DNA from: Capnocytophaga leadbetteri
Lineage (GTDB): Bacteria > Bacteroidota > Bacteroidia > Flavobacteriales > Flavobacteriaceae
Assembly (NCBI RefSeq): GCF_003054025.1
Contig: NZ_QBKG01000003.1
Location: 62,001-126,000, forward strand
Direction: 5' to 3'
Length of the DNA: 64,000 nucleotides
Shown here: positions 29,360 through 35,044 of the stretch, piece by piece
Layout of the letters: each line of letters begins with the position of its first letter
Numbering within the stretch: the stretch's first letter is position 1
Notes under the pieces: model-generated
The model's database searches: none
Seen by the model: only the letters and a program-made list of their open reading frames with translations
Told to the model about the DNA's origin: nothing
Program-made: the position numbers and the translations under genes

Positions 29360-31633
29360 TTATTTTACGGTTTTTCTAAAGTACTCACACTCGTTTAGCA
29401 CCTCTTTGTAGTACTTAGTATGCGGATATTTCCGCAGTTCTTTAAAGCCTTTCCAGTCTTTAAACATAACATCATCATAGTTAGCCCCATCCTTATTTTT
29501 GTAAAAATAAGCTTGGTTGTAAAACTCATTGCGCTCTGTTTTGGCAAGCAGATAGGCTATTTTGGCTCTTTGCTCGTCGTTAGTAGCGTGTTTTTGAGCC
29601 AAAAGGTAATACTGCTTCGCCTTATCCATACCGAGTAGCAACACTCGGTTTTCGTCTTTTACTCCCAGCGAACCCGCTTCTCCCAGAATATTATTGTAGT
29701 AAAAAGCGCGCAAACTACCGTAGTAAGAAGCGTTGTAAAACGCATTCCCTACCAAGAGAGCATTGTTATATACGTCGTCATTTTGCGCTATTTTCGCCTC
29801 CATCTCCTTCACTTTTTCTAAGAAAGAGAGCTTAGTATAGGGGTTTCGCTGTTTTTTAGCGTGTTCGCAATCGTGACAGTCGGTTATAAAGCCATTAAAC
29901 GGATTAGCAGGCAATAGCGCATCACTCTTTTTCAGCCTCTTAGTTACCATTCTGCCTGTCTCTTCATCATATACCTTTTCATTTACATAAGGCGTTTGCT
30001 TCATTTGGGCAATCGCCCCGTCTATAGCATCGCGATAAAACGCATAAATAGCGCGACTCTCATAAATATCACCTAAGTTAAAAGCGTAGTAGTTAGCCCA
30101 ATGTTGTTCCCACTCACTTTTATCGGTTTTTAGCAAAAACTGCTCCATCGCTACCGACTGCTGCTCATTTTTGTAGTAATTAGGTTGAAAGTTGAGCAAC
30201 TCGCTCATCAGTGTATTGCCTTTCTCGCGGTATAGTGCCGCCAAGTATTGCCTTACCAAAGCAAAAGCATTACCACTGCGCAACTTTCCTTTTTCGCTGT
30301 CGTTAGCATCCTCAAAATAGTGCCACAACCATTGCACACGCTTCAATAGTCGTTTTTCTACTTCTTTATCGATAGTCTTACAGCTTGTTACCTCATTTAG
30401 CACATCTATAATTCTTATTTGTGCTTGTTGTTCTGGCGTTTTAGTCTCTTTTTCTGCCTTTTGCAGGAATGCCTTAGCCCGTGCATTCTCGCCTTTATAC
30501 ATCAGCAGATAGCCCGCCGCTACATTCCATAAGTACTTGTTTTTCACCGCAGTATGCTCTGCCGCATTAACGAGCCAATCTATAGCAAAGCCACTCATCT
30601 CCTTCTTATTGTGCTGGTGATAGGTAGCTGTTTGCTTCAGCGGATTGTCTTCATTCCATACATTTACCTTGTATTCTACGCCATTCACATAGCGCGATAG
30701 CAAAAAGTCCACCTCTTCCGAAGCCGGATTTATAGCCAAAATACGCTGTATAGCCTCTGCCTCGTCTTTGTCATAATACCCTTGCATAGCCCACAGAGCG
30801 CATTGCTCTTGAGCGGACAGACTTGGCAAAATACTGTTCATTTGCGCATTGGTAAGCGGATGATAATCGTAAGTGAGTATCTGGGCTTTGTCAGGCATAC
30901 CTACCCACACCTTGGCAAGCGTAGCATTGGCATTAGCGTATTGCTTTTGGGCTTTGTAGGCACCTGCCACATAGTACAAAGCGCGGTAATACAAACGGTT
31001 TTTAGGTTGTGCGTCTTGGGTTTTAGCAAAATAGTCTATCACACTGCTTCTATTAGCCGAATAGAAACGCAAACGCACCGACTGAAACCACATCCGATTA
31101 GCAAAGAAAGCATCTTTTTGCTTCAAGGCTTGCGCGTAGAGCTTATCTGCTTTGCTTATTTCAGTTTGTGCGATACGCTCTGCCTGCTTGCTTTCGTCGT
31201 AATTCCAAGGGTTGAAGTGAGTCGCCGTAATAGGCTCATTATTGCGAGCTATCTGTAAAAAAGCAAAAAAATTCTGCACTCGCTCATTTTTATTAGCTTT
31301 AAGGGTTTGCAAGGACGGACTCTCACCATACATCAGCACGTATATAGTATTAGTAGGGAGTTGAGTCCCCAAATAGGCATTCCAGTCAGCTACGTCATTT
31401 CGGCTGTAGTCACGGCTACTCGCATTGATGTACTGCCAGTTGTAGAAAGCGTTTTCAGTATCGAAGAAAAGAGGTTGGTAATTAGTATTATTCACCGTCA
31501 CTTCAGGTGAAAACACCGAGCCGTACTCGCGCCATTCAGGCTCGAATATACAAGCGTAGAGGTACATCCCTGCACTAAGTACGCAGGCTACACAAGCCGT
31601 AATAATAATTGTTTTTTTTCTTAATAGTTTCAT
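29360..31633 (-). CDS. large secreted or lipidated protein of unknown function
   Basis: About 757 residues with an N-terminal hydrophobic helix (TIIITACVACVLSAGMYLYAC) that can be a signal anchor or lipoprotein signal (L-Y-A-C). Start is ATG 31633 or ATG 31651, six codons earlier; I prefer 31633 for its compact basic N-terminus. The body is helical and rich in Tyr, Asn and Ala, with TPR-like stretches: ALYYVAGAYKAQKQYANANA, LMYKGENARAKAFLQKAEKE and AKQYYLLAQKHATNDEQRAK. A CHDCEH motif near residue 585 could bind metal or heme. I do not recognise the family. Confidence 0.75.
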   Translation of the reverse strand: MKLLRKKTIIITACVACVLSAGMYLYACIFEPEWREYGSVFSPEVTVNNTNYQPLFFDTENAFYNWQYINASSRDYSRNDVADWNAYLGTQLPTNTIYVLMYGESPSLQTLKANKNERVQNFFAFLQIARNNEPITATHFNPWNYDESKQAERIAQTEISKADKLYAQALKQKDAFFANRMWFQSVRLRFYSANRSSVIDYFAKTQDAQPKNRLYYRALYYVAGAYKAQKQYANANATLAKVWVGMPDKAQILTYDYHPLTNAQMNSILPSLSAQEQCALWAMQGYYDKDEAEAIQRILAINPASEEVDFLLSRYVNGVEYKVNVWNEDNPLKQTATYHQHNKKEMSGFAIDWLVNAAEHTAVKNKYLWNVAAGYLLMYKGENARAKAFLQKAEKETKTPEQQAQIRIIDVLNEVTSCKTIDKEVEKRLLKRVQWLWHYFEDANDSEKGKLRSGNAFALVRQYLAALYREKGNTLMSELLNFQPNYYKNEQQSVAMEQFLLKTDKSEWEQHWANYYAFNLGDIYESRAIYAFYRDAIDGAIAQMKQTPYVNEKVYDEETGRMVTKRLKKSDALLPANPFNGFITDCHDCEHAKKQRNPYTKLSFLEKVKEMEAKIAQNDDVYNNALLVGNAFYNASYYGSLRAFYYNNILGEAGSLGVKDENRVLLLGMDKAKQYYLLAQKHATNDEQRAKIAYLLAKTERNEFYNQAYFYKNKDGANYDDVMFKDWKGFKELRKYPHTKYYKEVLNECEYFRKTVK

Positions 31634-31689
31634 ATCTTTATTTATCTTCATAATGCCCGTAAGCTGATAATATTATTTGTAAAGCATAT

Positions 31690-31830
31690 TTATAAGTTCT
31701 TGTTTTGAAGCCTTTGTTTTTTACTAGCCCTTGCTTCGTCTATCATCTTAAAAAATTCTTCTTTTGCTATTAAAGTATAATCTTCTTTCTTCTCTAAAAT
31801 AGTAATTGCTTGTATAGTTATCGCACTCAT
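31690..31830 (-). CDS. small hypothetical protein (46 aa)
   Basis: A 46-residue ORF from ATG 31830, preceded by AAAAAGAATT. It is charged at the C-terminus (FFKMIDEARASKKQRLQNKN) and starts MSAITIQAITILEKKEDYTL. Its start lies 8 bases after the stop of the 73-residue ORF upstream, so they form a two-gene unit. Size and pairing recall toxin-antitoxin modules or immunity-type genes, but no family is recognised. Confidence 0.5.
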   Translation of the reverse strand: MSAITIQAITILEKKEDYTLIAKEEFFKMIDEARASKKQRLQNKNL

Positions 31831-31838
31831 AATTCTTT

Positions 31839-32060
31839 TTATATTATTCTTGGGTCGTATGGTTTGATTAATCCTTGATCGTATAGCTCTGAACCTACTT
31901 TTTGGCATTCAGCTACTAATTTTTTCAACTCCTCCACTTCAGTTATTTCTTTAAGAGAGGCTTCCCTTTCAGGAAAAACAACTCCTAAATTTTTACTTAT
32001 AAGCACTTTATCAACAGTCGTGCCTGTTAATCTGTTTATTTTTATAGCGGTTGCTGGCAT
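31839..32060 (-). CDS. small hypothetical protein (73 aa)
   Basis: A 73-residue ORF with no signal peptide. A helical middle (ASLKEITEVEELKKLVAECQ) is followed by a short polar tail. No family recognised. It is the first gene of a pair with the 46-residue ORF. Upstream is the repeat-rich patch starting near 32330, so this pair may belong to the same accessory patch. Confidence 0.5.
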   Translation of the reverse strand: MPATAIKINRLTGTTVDKVLISKNLGVVFPEREASLKEITEVEELKKLVAECQKVGSELYDQGLIKPYDPRII

Positions 32061-32384
32061 AATATTTTTATTTTAGTTATAAAGGGTACTCTATAATTAT
32101 CTTTTTCTCAAAGATATATAGAAGCTGTTTAAACTTTTTTAGAGAAATAAAAGTTCTCGAAAATTAGTAAATTTGTGTGTTGCAAAAAAAGAACACCAAA
32201 ATTCAGCAACTTTGTGCAAAGATACAATAAATAATTGGATTATTACTTTTTTAAGTGTAAAAAAGAAGATTTAGCTTTCATAATGGAGAGCAACCAGATG
32301 TTTATTTTCTTGATATAACTTAGATTGGAATGCCCTTATTAGGGTTTATCTCCAAGTTCCTCAAAAAAAGTTTAAACAGGTTTT

Positions 32385-32540
32385 GTCACGTCCCACCTGT
32401 CTCACTCGTCCCACCTGTCTCACTCGTCCCTCCTGTCCCACTTGTCCCACCTGTCCCACTTGTCCCACCTGTCCCACTTGTCCCACCTGTCCCACCTGTC
32501 CCACCTGTCTCACTTGTCCCACCTGTCTCACTTGTCCCAC
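32385..32540 (+). repeat. C-rich 9-bp tandem array (TCCCACYTG), array 1
   Basis: About seventeen units of TCCCACCTG/TCCCACTTG/TCTCACTTG run head to tail. Nine is a multiple of three, so all three plus frames stay open and yield repetitive reading frames (PPV, CPT and SHL repeats). These are compositional artefacts. Upstream, 32061-32384 is AT-rich with no feature I can name. Confidence 0.92.
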
Positions 32541-32573
32541 AATTCAGAATTCAAAATTCATAATTTGCCAATT

Positions 32574-32712
32574 CCCTTCGCACTATTTAGAGCGCATTAT
32601 AGGCTTAAAAAACGCTTATCTCTATGGTAGGTAAAGGTAAATAGTAGGGTAGTTCTTTTGTATTGTGTTGATTTTTAATGTGATAAAAATTTAACAACAC
32701 ATTTGATACATT
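32574..32712 (+). repeat. direct repeat of about 139 bp, copy 1
   Basis: Starts CCCTTCGCACTATTTAGAGC, passes through a shared AGGCTTAAAAAACGCTTATC segment, and ends AACAACACATTTGATACATT. It matches 33239-33375 with scattered substitutions and small indels in the middle. Each copy ends just before the stop codon of a small minus-strand gene. A third, truncated copy starts at 33956 and stops after ACTATTTAGAGC. Confidence 0.85.
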
Positions 32713-32714
32713 AC

Positions 32715-33014
32715 CTACTGCCAGTGCATATTATTCTTAGAGAGAAAATTCTTAAATAATGAATAAGGAACAGGTTGTAACTCAAAAAATAATTCTTCTT
32801 TATGATCTGTTTCTAAATCAAAAATATCTTCATTCTCAATATAGTATTTGTTTGCAAATTCTCTATCTATAATTGTTTTATATCTATCACCTAGAAAAGT
32901 AAAAGTTATAGCCATAATCTCCGAATCTTCTATTTCTATATTATTAATGATACATTCAGCAATTTTAGGAGATACAAAAAAAGCTAAATCTTTTCTATAT
33001 AAAAAGTATGCCAT
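32715..33014 (-). CDS. small hypothetical protein, immunity-like (99 aa)
   Basis: A 99-residue cytosolic protein, acidic overall (IEIEDSEIM, NEDIFDLETDHKEELFFEL), with no signal or membrane segment. Small, acidic and orphan, it looks like a polymorphic-toxin immunity protein. Its ATG comes one base after the TAG of a broken upstream reading frame (33016-33105), the spacing usual for toxin-immunity pairs. AT content is higher than in the core genes around it. No family recognised, and the immunity role is inference from context. Confidence 0.6.
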   Translation of the reverse strand: MAYFLYRKDLAFFVSPKIAECIINNIEIEDSEIMAITFTFLGDRYKTIIDREFANKYYIENEDIFDLETDHKEELFFELQPVPYSLFKNFLSKNNMHWQ

Positions 33015-33015
33015 A

Positions 33016-33105
33016 CTAAAAACCTAATTCTTTTAAATATTTCATTTTCCCTAAAGGAGATTTAGGAATATTTACACCTTCTTCCCATTGGTGCAAGCTT
33101 GCTGC
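33016..33105 (-). pseudogene. broken 3' tail of a lost gene
   Basis: On the minus strand a frame opens after a TAG and reads AQAASLHQWEEGVNIPKS then PLGKMKYLKELGF before TAG at 33018-33016. The protein-like part begins at the hairpin repeat (33090-33112); upstream of it the sequence is only repeat. It is best read as the last about 25 codons of a gene cut off by the repeat element, directly preceding the 99-residue gene. Confidence 0.55.
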
Positions 33106-33112
33106 TTGTGCC
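33090..33112. repeat. hairpin element GGYGCAAGC...GCTTGTGCC, copy 1
   Basis: GGTGCAAGC (33090-33098) and GCTTGTGCC (33104-33112) can pair with G-U tolerance over a 5-nt loop. The same element stands at 33859-33881. It forms the junction between a gene tail and the AATTCARAATTCACAATTCTC segment. Confidence 0.75.
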
Positions 33113-33138
33113 TAATTCAGAATTCACAATTCTCTCCC

Positions 33139-33230
33139 CGTCCCACTCGTCTCACCAGTCCCAGCCCTCCCAATCCTCCCAGCCCTCCCAGCCTTCTCAA
33201 CCCTCTCACCAGTCCCACTTGTCCCACAAT
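33139..33230 (+). repeat. C-rich tandem array, array 2 (diverged)
   Basis: A looser array of about 9-bp units such as TCCCACTCG, TCTCACCAG and TCCCAGCCC. It lies between the hairpin at 33090 and the second copy of the direct repeat. With those it fills the 33015-33389 interval. Confidence 0.8.
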
Positions 33231-33238
33231 TCAAAATC

Positions 33239-33375
33239 CCCTTCGCACTATTTAGAGCGTATTATAGGCTTAAAAAACGCTTATCTCTATAGTGGGTAAA
33301 GAGAAATAGTGGGGCAATTCTTTTGTATTGTGTTAATAGTTAGCCTTATGTTTTTAACAACACATCTGATACATT
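33239..33375 (+). repeat. direct repeat of about 139 bp, copy 2
   Basis: Matches 32574-32712 in the same orientation, from CCCTTCGCACTATTTAGAGC to AACAACACATCTGATACATT. The middle part differs (GTTAATAGTTAGCC here). It ends 15 bases before the stop codon of the 127-residue gene. Confidence 0.85.
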
Positions 33376-33389
33376 CCCCCCTTATCCCA

Positions 33390-33773
33390 CTAATAGAACT
33401 CAACTTTACAATCTGATAAAGCATAGATTCTACCATCAGATATCTCTATATTTTCTCCAGATATTTTTGCTGTCAATAAACCTAAATGTTTAGCACCTAA
33501 TGTTATACCTTTTCGCCATCCTTCAATATCTCCCTTATAAGATAATCCATGGAATAATTCGTTGGTAGGTAGCCAAATTTTACAATTCTCAGTGAGAGCT
33601 CCTCCTTCCTTAGCCATAAAAAATAAAGATGTAAGTTTAGAAAACAAAGTTTCTTTTTTAACCTTACTTCTTTTCTTTTTACGAAAAAAATCCTCTCCAT
33701 CATCAGCAACATAGAGAAATTCTCTACCTTCTACCTTTATTGTTCCTGGTATATGTCTGTTAATATTATCCAT
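33390..33773 (-). CDS. small hypothetical protein, immunity-like (127 aa)
   Basis: A 127-residue cytosolic protein starting MDNINRHIPGTIKVEGREFL, with a basic stretch (FFRKKKRSKVKKETLF) and a C-terminal beta-rich part (GLLTAKISGENIEISDGRIY). No family recognised. The frame is open to a TTG at 33788, but ATG 33773 overlaps the TAA of a broken upstream frame (ATGGATAA), the classic toxin-immunity overlap. As with the 99-residue gene, the partner is only a tail. The immunity role is inferred from architecture. Confidence 0.6.
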   Translation of the reverse strand: MDNINRHIPGTIKVEGREFLYVADDGEDFFRKKKRSKVKKETLFSKLTSLFFMAKEGGALTENCKIWLPTNELFHGLSYKGDIEGWRKGITLGAKHLGLLTAKISGENIEISDGRIYALSDCKVEFY

Positions 33774-33842
33774 TATATGATGTTTCAATAAATGTTATAT
33801 TATTCAATCCTGCTTCTTTAAAAACTTTTCAATAGTGCTCTT
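33766..33842 (-). pseudogene. broken 3' tail of a lost gene (frameshifted)
   Basis: The minus strand reads KSTIEKF, then changes frame in a T5 tract (33821-33828 area), then KEAGLNNITFIETSYNG and TAA at 33768-33766. One extra T would join them into STIEKFFKEAGLNN..., a convincing protein tail. A TAA stands immediately upstream (33845-33843), followed by a G-run (C-run on the plus strand) and the hairpin element at 33859. It is the remnant of a gene whose stop overlapped the start of the 127-residue gene. Confidence 0.55.
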
Positions 33843-33858
33843 TTAACTCCCCCCCGCT

Positions 33859-33945
33859 GGCGCAAGCTTGCCGCTTGTGCCCAATTCAAAATTCACAATT
33901 CTCTCACCTGTCCCACTTGTCCCACCAATCCCACTTGTCCCACAA
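33859..33945. repeat. hairpin element copy 2 with short C-rich array 3
   Basis: GGCGCAAGC (33859-33867) pairs with GCTTGTGCC (33873-33881), followed by CCAATTCAAAATTCACAATT and four to five C-rich units (TCTCACCTG, TCCCACTTG, TCCCACCAA, TCCCACTTG). From 33951 the start of the direct repeat follows (CCCTCGCACTATTTAGAGC) and breaks off at the next gene. It is a third, truncated copy of the same module. Confidence 0.8.
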
Positions 33946-33985
33946 TTCAAAATTCCCCTCGCACTATTTAGAGCATCACAACACC

Positions 33986-34957
33986 TTACTCACTCAAATT
34001 TGCCCCTACAAACCATATAACCCTCCTAATAGGTTGAGAAGAGTGTTCTCTAAGGTCTGCTAACATTTCTTTGCGCTGAGCATCGCTCACTTCTTCTATT
34101 TTTATCAGGTCGCCAGCTTGCCAAACCCGCCCTTTGTAATAGGTTTGTTCAGCCACCTTATAAATATCCGAAGCATCTGTGCGTACTAAGGTGCTGATAG
34201 CCTGCGCCTCGGCGTGCGTAAGTCCCCCTACCAAATTAAGCACCTGACCATCAGCCGAATGCACACCCCAAGCGAACATCGGCAGAGCAATATCCAGAGG
34301 AAGCGGGTACTCTCTAAGTTTGCCCAGATATCGCAAGGCGGTCGAGCGGTCGTAGATAGAGTTAGCCCCTGTAGCGGTGATGCGCCCCATATTGTAGTAC
34401 ATCAGCACCCCATAATCTACCGGCGGCACGCCCGTTTCCTCTCTGTACTTCACTTGGTGTAAGCGTATAGTGGCAGAAAGCTGATAAGGATACTCCTTCT
34501 TAAACGCCTCCAACATACTGAAATAGGCTTGTTTAGTAGAAAGCGACCAATCACAATCAAACTGCACCTCACTAACCCTAAGGTGGTAATACCTATTGAT
34601 TTGCTCAATATAGTCACCTAATTTATGCGCCAGCGTACTTATATAGGTAGAGTTTCCTTCGGTAAGTTCAGAGTTAAAAATCTCATTTTTAAGATAGACA
34701 ACCGGTATAACCGTCTTGCCTTGTACGCTAAGGGTATCAATATCTACAGGGGCGATGGGGACGGGCGCATTGTCGCGCAACCCCACATCACAATAGCGAA
34801 TATAAAAGCGTTCTATCCGGTTATTCTTCACAAAATCAGCTTCTTCAGCCGAAAATTGCACCTGTGTTTTCCAGCAATACAGAGCCTGCTCAGGCGGAGT
34901 ATCCTCATAACTACAAGCCCCTAACAATACTAATAATAGGTATAGATATTTTTTCAT
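33986..34957 (-). CDS. hypothetical lipoprotein, possible TIM-barrel glycosidase-like
   Basis: A 323-residue lipoprotein: KKYLYLLLVLLGAC with lipid Cys, then SYEDTPPEQ. The body has an alternating strand/helix pattern. VSEVQFDCDWSLSTKQAY (about residue 145), an FDxDxS/T-type segment, is followed by YGVLMYYNMGRI and LPMFAWGVHS, in the way GH18-like or GH-superfamily TIM barrels are built. Catalytic acids are not certain. The frame is open to 35020, but ATG 34957 starts the signal peptide. A TATCTTTG box ends only 5 bases before this ATG, suggesting a leaderless transcript. Confidence 0.75.
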   Translation of the reverse strand: MKKYLYLLLVLLGACSYEDTPPEQALYCWKTQVQFSAEEADFVKNNRIERFYIRYCDVGLRDNAPVPIAPVDIDTLSVQGKTVIPVVYLKNEIFNSELTEGNSTYISTLAHKLGDYIEQINRYYHLRVSEVQFDCDWSLSTKQAYFSMLEAFKKEYPYQLSATIRLHQVKYREETGVPPVDYGVLMYYNMGRITATGANSIYDRSTALRYLGKLREYPLPLDIALPMFAWGVHSADGQVLNLVGGLTHAEAQAISTLVRTDASDIYKVAEQTYYKGRVWQAGDLIKIEEVSDAQRKEMLADLREHSSQPIRRVIWFVGANLSE

Positions 34958-34962
34958 AAGGG

Positions 34963-34970
34963 CAAAGATA
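34963..34970 (-). promoter_or_regulatory. -7 box almost touching a start codon (leaderless?)
   Basis: The minus strand reads TATCTTTG followed by CCCTT and ATG (34957). Transcription starting at the usual distance would begin at or next to the start codon. Confidence 0.55.
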
Positions 34971-35044
34971 GGTAAATTTTCCAATTTATAAAATTGCCAA
35001 TTTATCAATTTTCTCATCATTTCATTGCTAAATCAGCAAATAGA

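Follow-up and report, generated by a model that had tools for sequence, protein, structure and literature searches.

Putative orphan Rhs immunity genes in a two-unit array of Capnocytophaga leadbetteri and a conserved block at the 3' edge of such units

Organization of the locus

The window analysed here is the whole stretch of 64,000 nucleotides from Capnocytophaga leadbetteri (assembly GCF_003054025.1, contig NZ_QBKG01000003.1, positions 62,001 to 126,000 of the forward strand), whose host genome (G000) comprises 2.64 Mb in 40 contigs. At its middle lies a small array: two short minus-strand genes, each preceded by the broken end of another reading frame and separated by repeated modules. 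As we argue below, this array probably stores orphan immunity genes that once accompanied Rhs polymorphic toxins, and a block that recurs in related arrays of the genus closes its units. The features of the locus, with positions counted from the first letter of the window, are the following.

31652..33985, no strand: segment missing at orthologous sites, between a 763-aa (amino acid) gene (29360-31651) and a lipoprotein gene (33986-35020)
32390..32540, plus strand: 9-bp C-rich tandem array 1 (GTCCCACCT); similar arrays occur elsewhere in the genome
32565..32715, minus strand: block copy 1, its GGTAATG start at the gene-1 stop codon
32715..33014, minus strand: gene 1, 99 aa, putative orphan immunity gene with a C. 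gingivalis homologue; guanine-cytosine (GC) content 25%
33016..33084, minus strand: tail 1, last part of an otherwise lost reading frame (..GVNIPKSPLGKMKYLKELGF, then stop), putatively of a toxin
33090..33112, minus strand: hairpin repeat copy
33141..33217, plus strand: 9-bp C-rich tandem array 2
33229..33378, minus strand: block copy 2, 11 bp past the gene-2 stop
33390..33773, minus strand: gene 2, 127 aa (from ATG), putative orphan immunity gene with a paralogue in the same genome; GC 31.5%
33766..33855, minus strand: tail 2, last part of a decayed reading frame, interrupted by a stop and reaching into the start of gene 2 (tail start approximate)
33859..33881, minus strand: hairpin repeat copy
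33905..33943, plus strand: 9-bp C-rich tandem array 3
33945..33975, minus strand: truncated block, reduced to model positions 122-152 and separated by 10 bp from the lipoprotein stop

Tail 1 (...MKYLKELGF) ends one base ahead of the ATG of gene 1, while tail 2 (...TFIETSYNG) runs into the start of gene 2. The initial annotation, made from the letters of the window, had described two small minus-strand genes behind broken tails in just this geometry, and the two open reading frames (ORFs) with their tails bear it out. It had also counted three copies of one module between positions 32385 and 33985, with the hairpin missing from the first. The 9-bp arrays, the AATTC spacers and two full blocks agree with this count, but in the third copy the block is reduced to its final ~30 bp; no hairpin accompanies the first array, as had been noted. 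Block copies 1 and 2 are 89% identical in a 108-nt core and 84% identical over 146 bp. The GC content of the segment 31652-33985 is 34.2%, against 41.9% for the whole window.

Our genus sample consisted of 20 genomes, one per species, including Capnocytophaga sp. oral taxon 863 F0517 (G001), C. bilenii Marseille-Q4570 (G002), C. gingivalis ATCC 33624 (G012) and C. sputigena NCTC11653 (G014); draft assemblies break at these repeats. The lipoprotein gene was matched in six other genomes of this sample. In five of the six, the orthologues of the flanking genes adjoin (16 bp), overlap or are fused, and the sixth shows a different neighbourhood. Since the segment is lacking at five of six orthologous sites, ~2.3 kb including the array were either gained in this lineage or lost in others. 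The region is not kept unchanged across species; for the cassette store proposed in the initial annotation, constancy among strains would have been the counter-evidence.

A conserved block closes the units of related arrays

Used as a query, block copy 1 matched 11 of the 20 genus genomes (G004, G007, G013, G017 and G018 by weaker partial matches only) and was most numerous in C. bilenii (at least 27 matches), G001 (at least 23) and the window genome (13). A 26-mer of the block start, with up to three mismatches, was found in 9 of 13 genomes, 13 times in the window genome, 26 times in G001 and 29 times in C. bilenii; its reversed control gave no match in any of the 13. A degenerate pattern of the block end, run against 84,980 species genomes (a scan that may leave out the window's own records), hit 17 stretches, all from Capnocytophaga.

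A block profile was then applied to 32 stretches, window included, picked mostly for matching the region, and yielded 72 matches in 30 of them, some being fragments of one copy. The longest array, in C. bilenii (locus L027), carries 11 block matches over ~11 kb. All 40 neighbouring block pairs within 3 kb are co-oriented, and the median gap in the arrays is 331 bp (29 gaps). The block is tightly coupled to gene ends: an ORF ends between -15 and +100 bp from the block start at 51 of 67 intact 5' edges, compared with 401 of 3350 random positions (12%). The median distance from stop to block is 8 bp (44 units), and in 12 cases, representing 9 different genes, the stop codon falls within the first five bases of the block. 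Across 38 aligned copies, mean column identity is 83%; 50 of 51 cassette genes have a GC content below 41%.

The other repeats behave differently from the block. The hairpin pattern GGCACAAGC..GCTTGCGCC, with up to three mismatches, occurs 94 times in C. bilenii (reversed control 0) and from 0 to 16 times in each of 12 other genomes; eight of its nine matches in the window genome lie in or beside block-bearing arrays. The 9-bp arrays give 65 matches to the region within the window genome, many at other places. Compared with other genomic copies, what the initial annotation had treated as one module falls apart into a dispersed hairpin, widespread 9-bp arrays and a block that recurs in related arrays beyond chance, as the reversed 26-mer control indicates. 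Only the block marks the 3' cassette edge; hairpins and 9-bp arrays probably ride along as passengers or provide additional homology.

We also considered the block ends as separate elements, and rejected this. The start of the last 30 bp had 59 loose matches, all but seven preceded by the core; by eye, six of the seven are unrelated sequences and one is the right end of the window array. Partial tandem copies of the block start (~19-31 bp) stand right before the full block in L027 (~5088 and ~10263), L029 (3823) and L035 (4775), with shorter 8-bp copies in L031 and L044; they look as if newer blocks overlay older ones.

Array genes and their link to Rhs toxins

Thirty array genes, hand-picked and not all of those present, were scanned against Pfam. 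Seven matched immunity or SUKH families above the cut-off (SUKH twice, Imm9 twice, Imm11, Imm26 and Imm43/Imm11), and further matches were one pentapeptide protein, one leucine-rich repeat protein and one AHH nuclease toxin tip. The AHH tip and an Rhs-core end sit inside array L027. Judging from their sequences, the array genes are, as a class, immunity genes.

For the two genes of the window, the link to Rhs toxins is provided by relatives. Gene 1 has a 93% aa-identical homologue in C. gingivalis (L033), found by DNA search; the same tail stands ahead of it and, further upstream, a piece of a decayed Rhs repeat matches Rhs proteins with 72% identity over 32 aa. A cassette in another array of the same genome (G000:C23) encodes an immunity protein 37% identical to gene 2, and tail 2 aligns with the tail of that paralogous cassette, with 0 of 5000 shuffles scoring as high. 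The window is linked to Rhs only through the L033 homology and the tail match. The best reading of genes 1 and 2 is thus that they are orphan immunity genes from Rhs polymorphic toxin systems, and the earlier suggestion of immunity genes left behind after toxin loss gains support. No scaffold gene had been seen nearby; the scaffold family is Rhs, found elsewhere in the genus. The initial annotation had suggested comparing the tails with the C-termini of longer toxins; neither tail was found ending an intact long toxin, LXG toxins and toxins exported by the type IX secretion system not having been searched. A search for relatives of the two genes in 395 genomes of the phylum returned matches from the window genome only. 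A PDB search with small profiles of the two genes returned one weak match each (E 0.0028, to a designed barrel, and 0.64), which were not used.

Elsewhere in the genus the association is direct. Rhs-core ends precede block-bearing units in L027, L029, L032, L034, L041 and L094. The complete Rhs gene of C. bilenii L100 (1551 aa) has behind it a gene in the immunity position and a divergent block (profile positions 1-117), and in L109 of G018 an Rhs 3' end, an immunity gene and a divergent block (positions 1-116) follow one another. Overall, a block lies at most 3.5 kb downstream of 9 of 32 Rhs-core ends, two of the nine having one block in common. It follows all six cores with the motif QGQYYDFET and 3 of the 26 others (Fisher 9e-5, the grouping having been chosen after seeing the data). 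A connection to the type VI secretion system (T6SS) is seen in G010, where a long Rhs gene stands beside genes for VgrG, Hcp (TssD) and TssC; none of the four core ends of G010 has a block. TssC is present in 10 of the 20 genus genomes, the window genome included, and none was found in G002, G012 and G018.

Signs of exchange at the block

Several shared cassettes carry the same gene with differing blocks. The cassette whose immunity protein starts with MNDYVKISG was found at four loci: C. bilenii has three of them and the window genome has one. Its genes are at least 99% identical and the 90 bp upstream 94-99%, and its blocks are 81-91% identical, against a background of 80.2 (standard deviation, sd, 4.7; 935 pairs) between unrelated cassettes. 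Positions 1-61 of these blocks match at 87-100%, like the gene, while positions 62-90 match at 59-79% (background 70, sd 12) and positions 91-121 at 77-90% (background 88, sd 6). In two more cassette pairs the genes are 96-97% identical and the blocks 71% and 80%, homology ending at the first bases of the block; the MIHLDKP cassette likewise loses homology at this point.

The block family as a whole is mosaic. Identities of the two block halves are nearly uncorrelated across 38 copies (r 0.12, versus 0.48 for random column splits, sd 0.07, minimum 0.25), and both halves share the same nearest relative in 1 of 38 copies, versus 12.4 (sd 2.9) in random splits. A finer scan of the same copies places the decoupling near positions 28, 42-60 and 69-85. 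Such decoupling at several places is more readily explained by repeated homologous recombination or gene conversion than by a single crossover site. A single crossover point, clear near position 61 for one cassette, was dropped on the same grounds. The initial annotation had proposed recombination at the repeats; the shared sequences speak for exchange at the block, seen indirectly, but not for the hairpins and 9-bp arrays as cassette edges.

Proposed origin of the arrays and alternative explanations

Taken together, we consider it probable that the window holds a two-unit store of orphan Rhs immunity genes, moved by homologous exchange with the Rhs core and the block as handles. In one Rhs lineage, the variable toxin tip and its immunity gene would lie between two conserved flanks, the Rhs core on the 5' side and, on the 3' side, a block of ~120 bp that starts at, and sometimes inside, the immunity stop codon. 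Homologous recombination of the RecA type, or gene conversion, between these flanks would swap tip-immunity units, and displaced units would be deposited elsewhere as co-oriented arrays. There the toxin part would decay to a short tail, while selection on the antidote would keep the immunity gene, which, if expressed, presumably protects against neighbours that still fire the toxin. More tentatively, block and Rhs core might be dedicated handles, making integrase-free interchangeable cassettes that pass between an effector locus and scattered antidote stores; we see this as possible, though doubtful.

Should the block start GGTAATG...TTAAAA be a tyrosine recombinase site, as in rAID (recombinase-associated acquired interbacterial defence) or integron cassettes, the arrays would belong to a site-specific system, which we find quite improbable. 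Among five block windows, background identity does peak at positions 1-28 (89%), and in L100 and L109 the block and a tyrosine integrase are ~1 kb apart. The homology between these two loci ends near the GGTAATG edge, with different immunity genes beyond; several shared cassettes break there too. This integrase, also found beside (downstream of) the array in L031, is part of an element that occurs full-length, at 95-100% identity, in 8 of the 20 genus genomes (8 copies in G010), and the left end of the element, fixed ~250-270 bp ahead of the integrase ATG, differs in sequence from the block. In L031, immunity-gene homology ends within ~35 bp of the expected left end, so that the element looks inserted into the immunity gene. 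As a widespread element with a different left end, it was rejected as the arrays' own recombinase, and might act as a carrier. The copies of this element in L132-L147 have variable cargo (by eye relaxase-like, single-stranded DNA-binding protein-like, efflux and Rhs genes). Among window ORFs of at least 150 aa, inspected by eye and without the B. fragilis rAID recombinase as a query, none looks like a recombinase or integrase. Decoupling at several block points and a weak consensus fold likewise argue against a single site. By eye, the 28-mer differs in sequence and spacing from the dif candidates of the genus, and its identity with a dif/Xer site was dropped; the candidates are themselves not firm, since a dif-like pattern gave one site, a different one, in each of seven genomes (L083-L089, 2-3 mismatches) and the reversed control gave one in three of the seven.

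Immunity genes might also have been pushed back by incoming modules through mostly illegitimate recombination, as in Vibrio cholerae, the block being an inert inherited 3' flank. Such sequential displacement likewise results in arrays of orphan immunity genes that contain remnants of effectors (PMC5361080); the block is indeed the 3' flank of Rhs units, and the ends of some shared cassettes lie short of the block start or past it. It is nevertheless unlikely in our view: several shared cassettes break at or in the block, the block is mosaic, and the stretches fetched around L027 and the window array contain no complete Rhs gene. Finally, a block that starts at or just past gene stops, between array genes, could be chiefly regulatory (a terminator, promoter or RNA), its mosaicism reflecting gene conversion among the members of a repeat family that plays no part in gene movement. 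On the gene strand the block folds better than 59 of 60 column shuffles (energy z -2.7, one shuffle being as low; other strand -1.35), and block copy 1 of the window better than 197 of 200 shuffles. The consensus fold has eight pairs, one of them with double changes (covariation term -0.33), and Rfam gave no match near the gathering score. TTTG/TAnnTTTG, the promoter consensus, is absent from the segment. Structured RNA, Rfam family and promoter were each tried as readings and yielded weak support or none, and we give a regulatory block little likelihood.

A number of observations weigh against a store of Rhs immunity genes exchanged through core and block, the missing consensus promoter being one of them. 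Neither gene 1 nor gene 2 matches any family above the cut-off, so their role rests on context; housekeeping families are among those without a match, in line with the initial annotation. Twenty of the 30 scanned array genes had nothing above the Pfam cut-off. The 32 Rhs-core ends are those that fell in fetched stretches, out of 48 matches in 11 genomes, 16 being left out; there is no block at 23 of the 32, including the Rhs-tip arrays of G001 and the long Rhs genes of G010, and the block is therefore not required for Rhs arrays. The QGQYYDFET association was noted post hoc and its copies are not independent. In the window genome, assembled in 40 contigs, two short Rhs ends were found and no complete Rhs gene, though TssC is present. 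Nor do all shared cassettes have their break at the block. Among 11 cassette pairs, the one formed by gene 1 and its C. gingivalis homologue keeps its similarity up to about block position 121 (DNA identity 88% in the gene, 85% in the block), and it does not tell exchange from descent. The L034/L094 pair is alike for ~75 bp past the stop and diverges before the block, the L093/L033 pair is alike for ~30 bp past the stop, and in two more pairs the genes are too diverged to judge.

Comparison with known immunity arrays

Of the known systems, rAID of Bacteroidales shares with the Capnocytophaga arrays co-oriented, short, AT-rich orphan immunity genes including SUKH, conserved intergenic sequence and a link to T6SS effectors (PMC12247911). 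On the evidence here, co-oriented short orphan immunity genes, a GC content below 41% and intergenic motifs conserved among the Capnocytophaga arrays are all present, and the defining recombinase is missing. Unlike rAID as portrayed in that paper, the arrays described here are from Capnocytophaga, number several per genome, retain toxin tails and Rhs-core ends, and have no tyrosine recombinase that we could find upstream.

Displaced Rhs tips with immunity genes and homologous recombination in the Rhs core are likewise features of the orphan rhs-CT/rhsI modules of Enterobacteriaceae (PMC3967940). An immunity gene behind an Rhs toxin 3' end, typical of those modules, is found in the genus arrays; the Capnocytophaga units differ in being often coreless, at many loci and with a common 3' block. 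The T6SS immunity arrays of V. cholerae also keep orphan immunity genes and 3' remnants of displaced effectors, but lie, according to PMC5361080, in the 3' region of T6SS clusters, whereas those of Capnocytophaga are found at scattered sites, their units separated by a repeated module. Co-oriented, structurally unrelated immunity genes are also what heterogeneous polyimmunity loci consist of; as outlined in PMC3482391, these are closely spaced and never interrupted by toxin cassettes. Small gaps free of toxin cassettes are not what the Capnocytophaga arrays show, given their toxin remnants and wide median gap. Set against the foldable attC site of integron cassettes, whose boxes were compared by eye, the block offers the eight consensus pairs and the fold energies given above. 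We found no earlier description of Capnocytophaga arrays of this kind in the open-licence literature; PMC3482391 mentions the genus a single time.

The origin of orphan immunity arrays is stated as open for rAID (PMC12247911). If the tentative reading of block and Rhs core as dedicated handles is true, it would offer a recombinase-free route to rAID-like arrays. In related genomes, units with a common 3' module occur at several decay stages, from Rhs-core-bearing to immunity-only, and where one gene is seen at several places, its join can be located to within tens of bases. How such arrays are born thereby becomes testable.

Other features of the segment

Two further features lie in the segment, to the left of the modules. 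Positions 32122-32382 contain a 26-nt inverted repeat resembling a miniature inverted-repeat transposable element, with arms 88% complementary and 209 nt between them; exact copies of the arm core GCTGTTTAAACTTTTT are present in 12 of 151 fetched loci, of which several are this very place. A small minus-strand ORF at 31690-31908 has an end, FFKMIDEARASKK, which by eye is like that of two antitoxin-like ORFs, one in L092 (1534-1755) and one in L108 (2694-2912), and these two are also close to block-bearing units.

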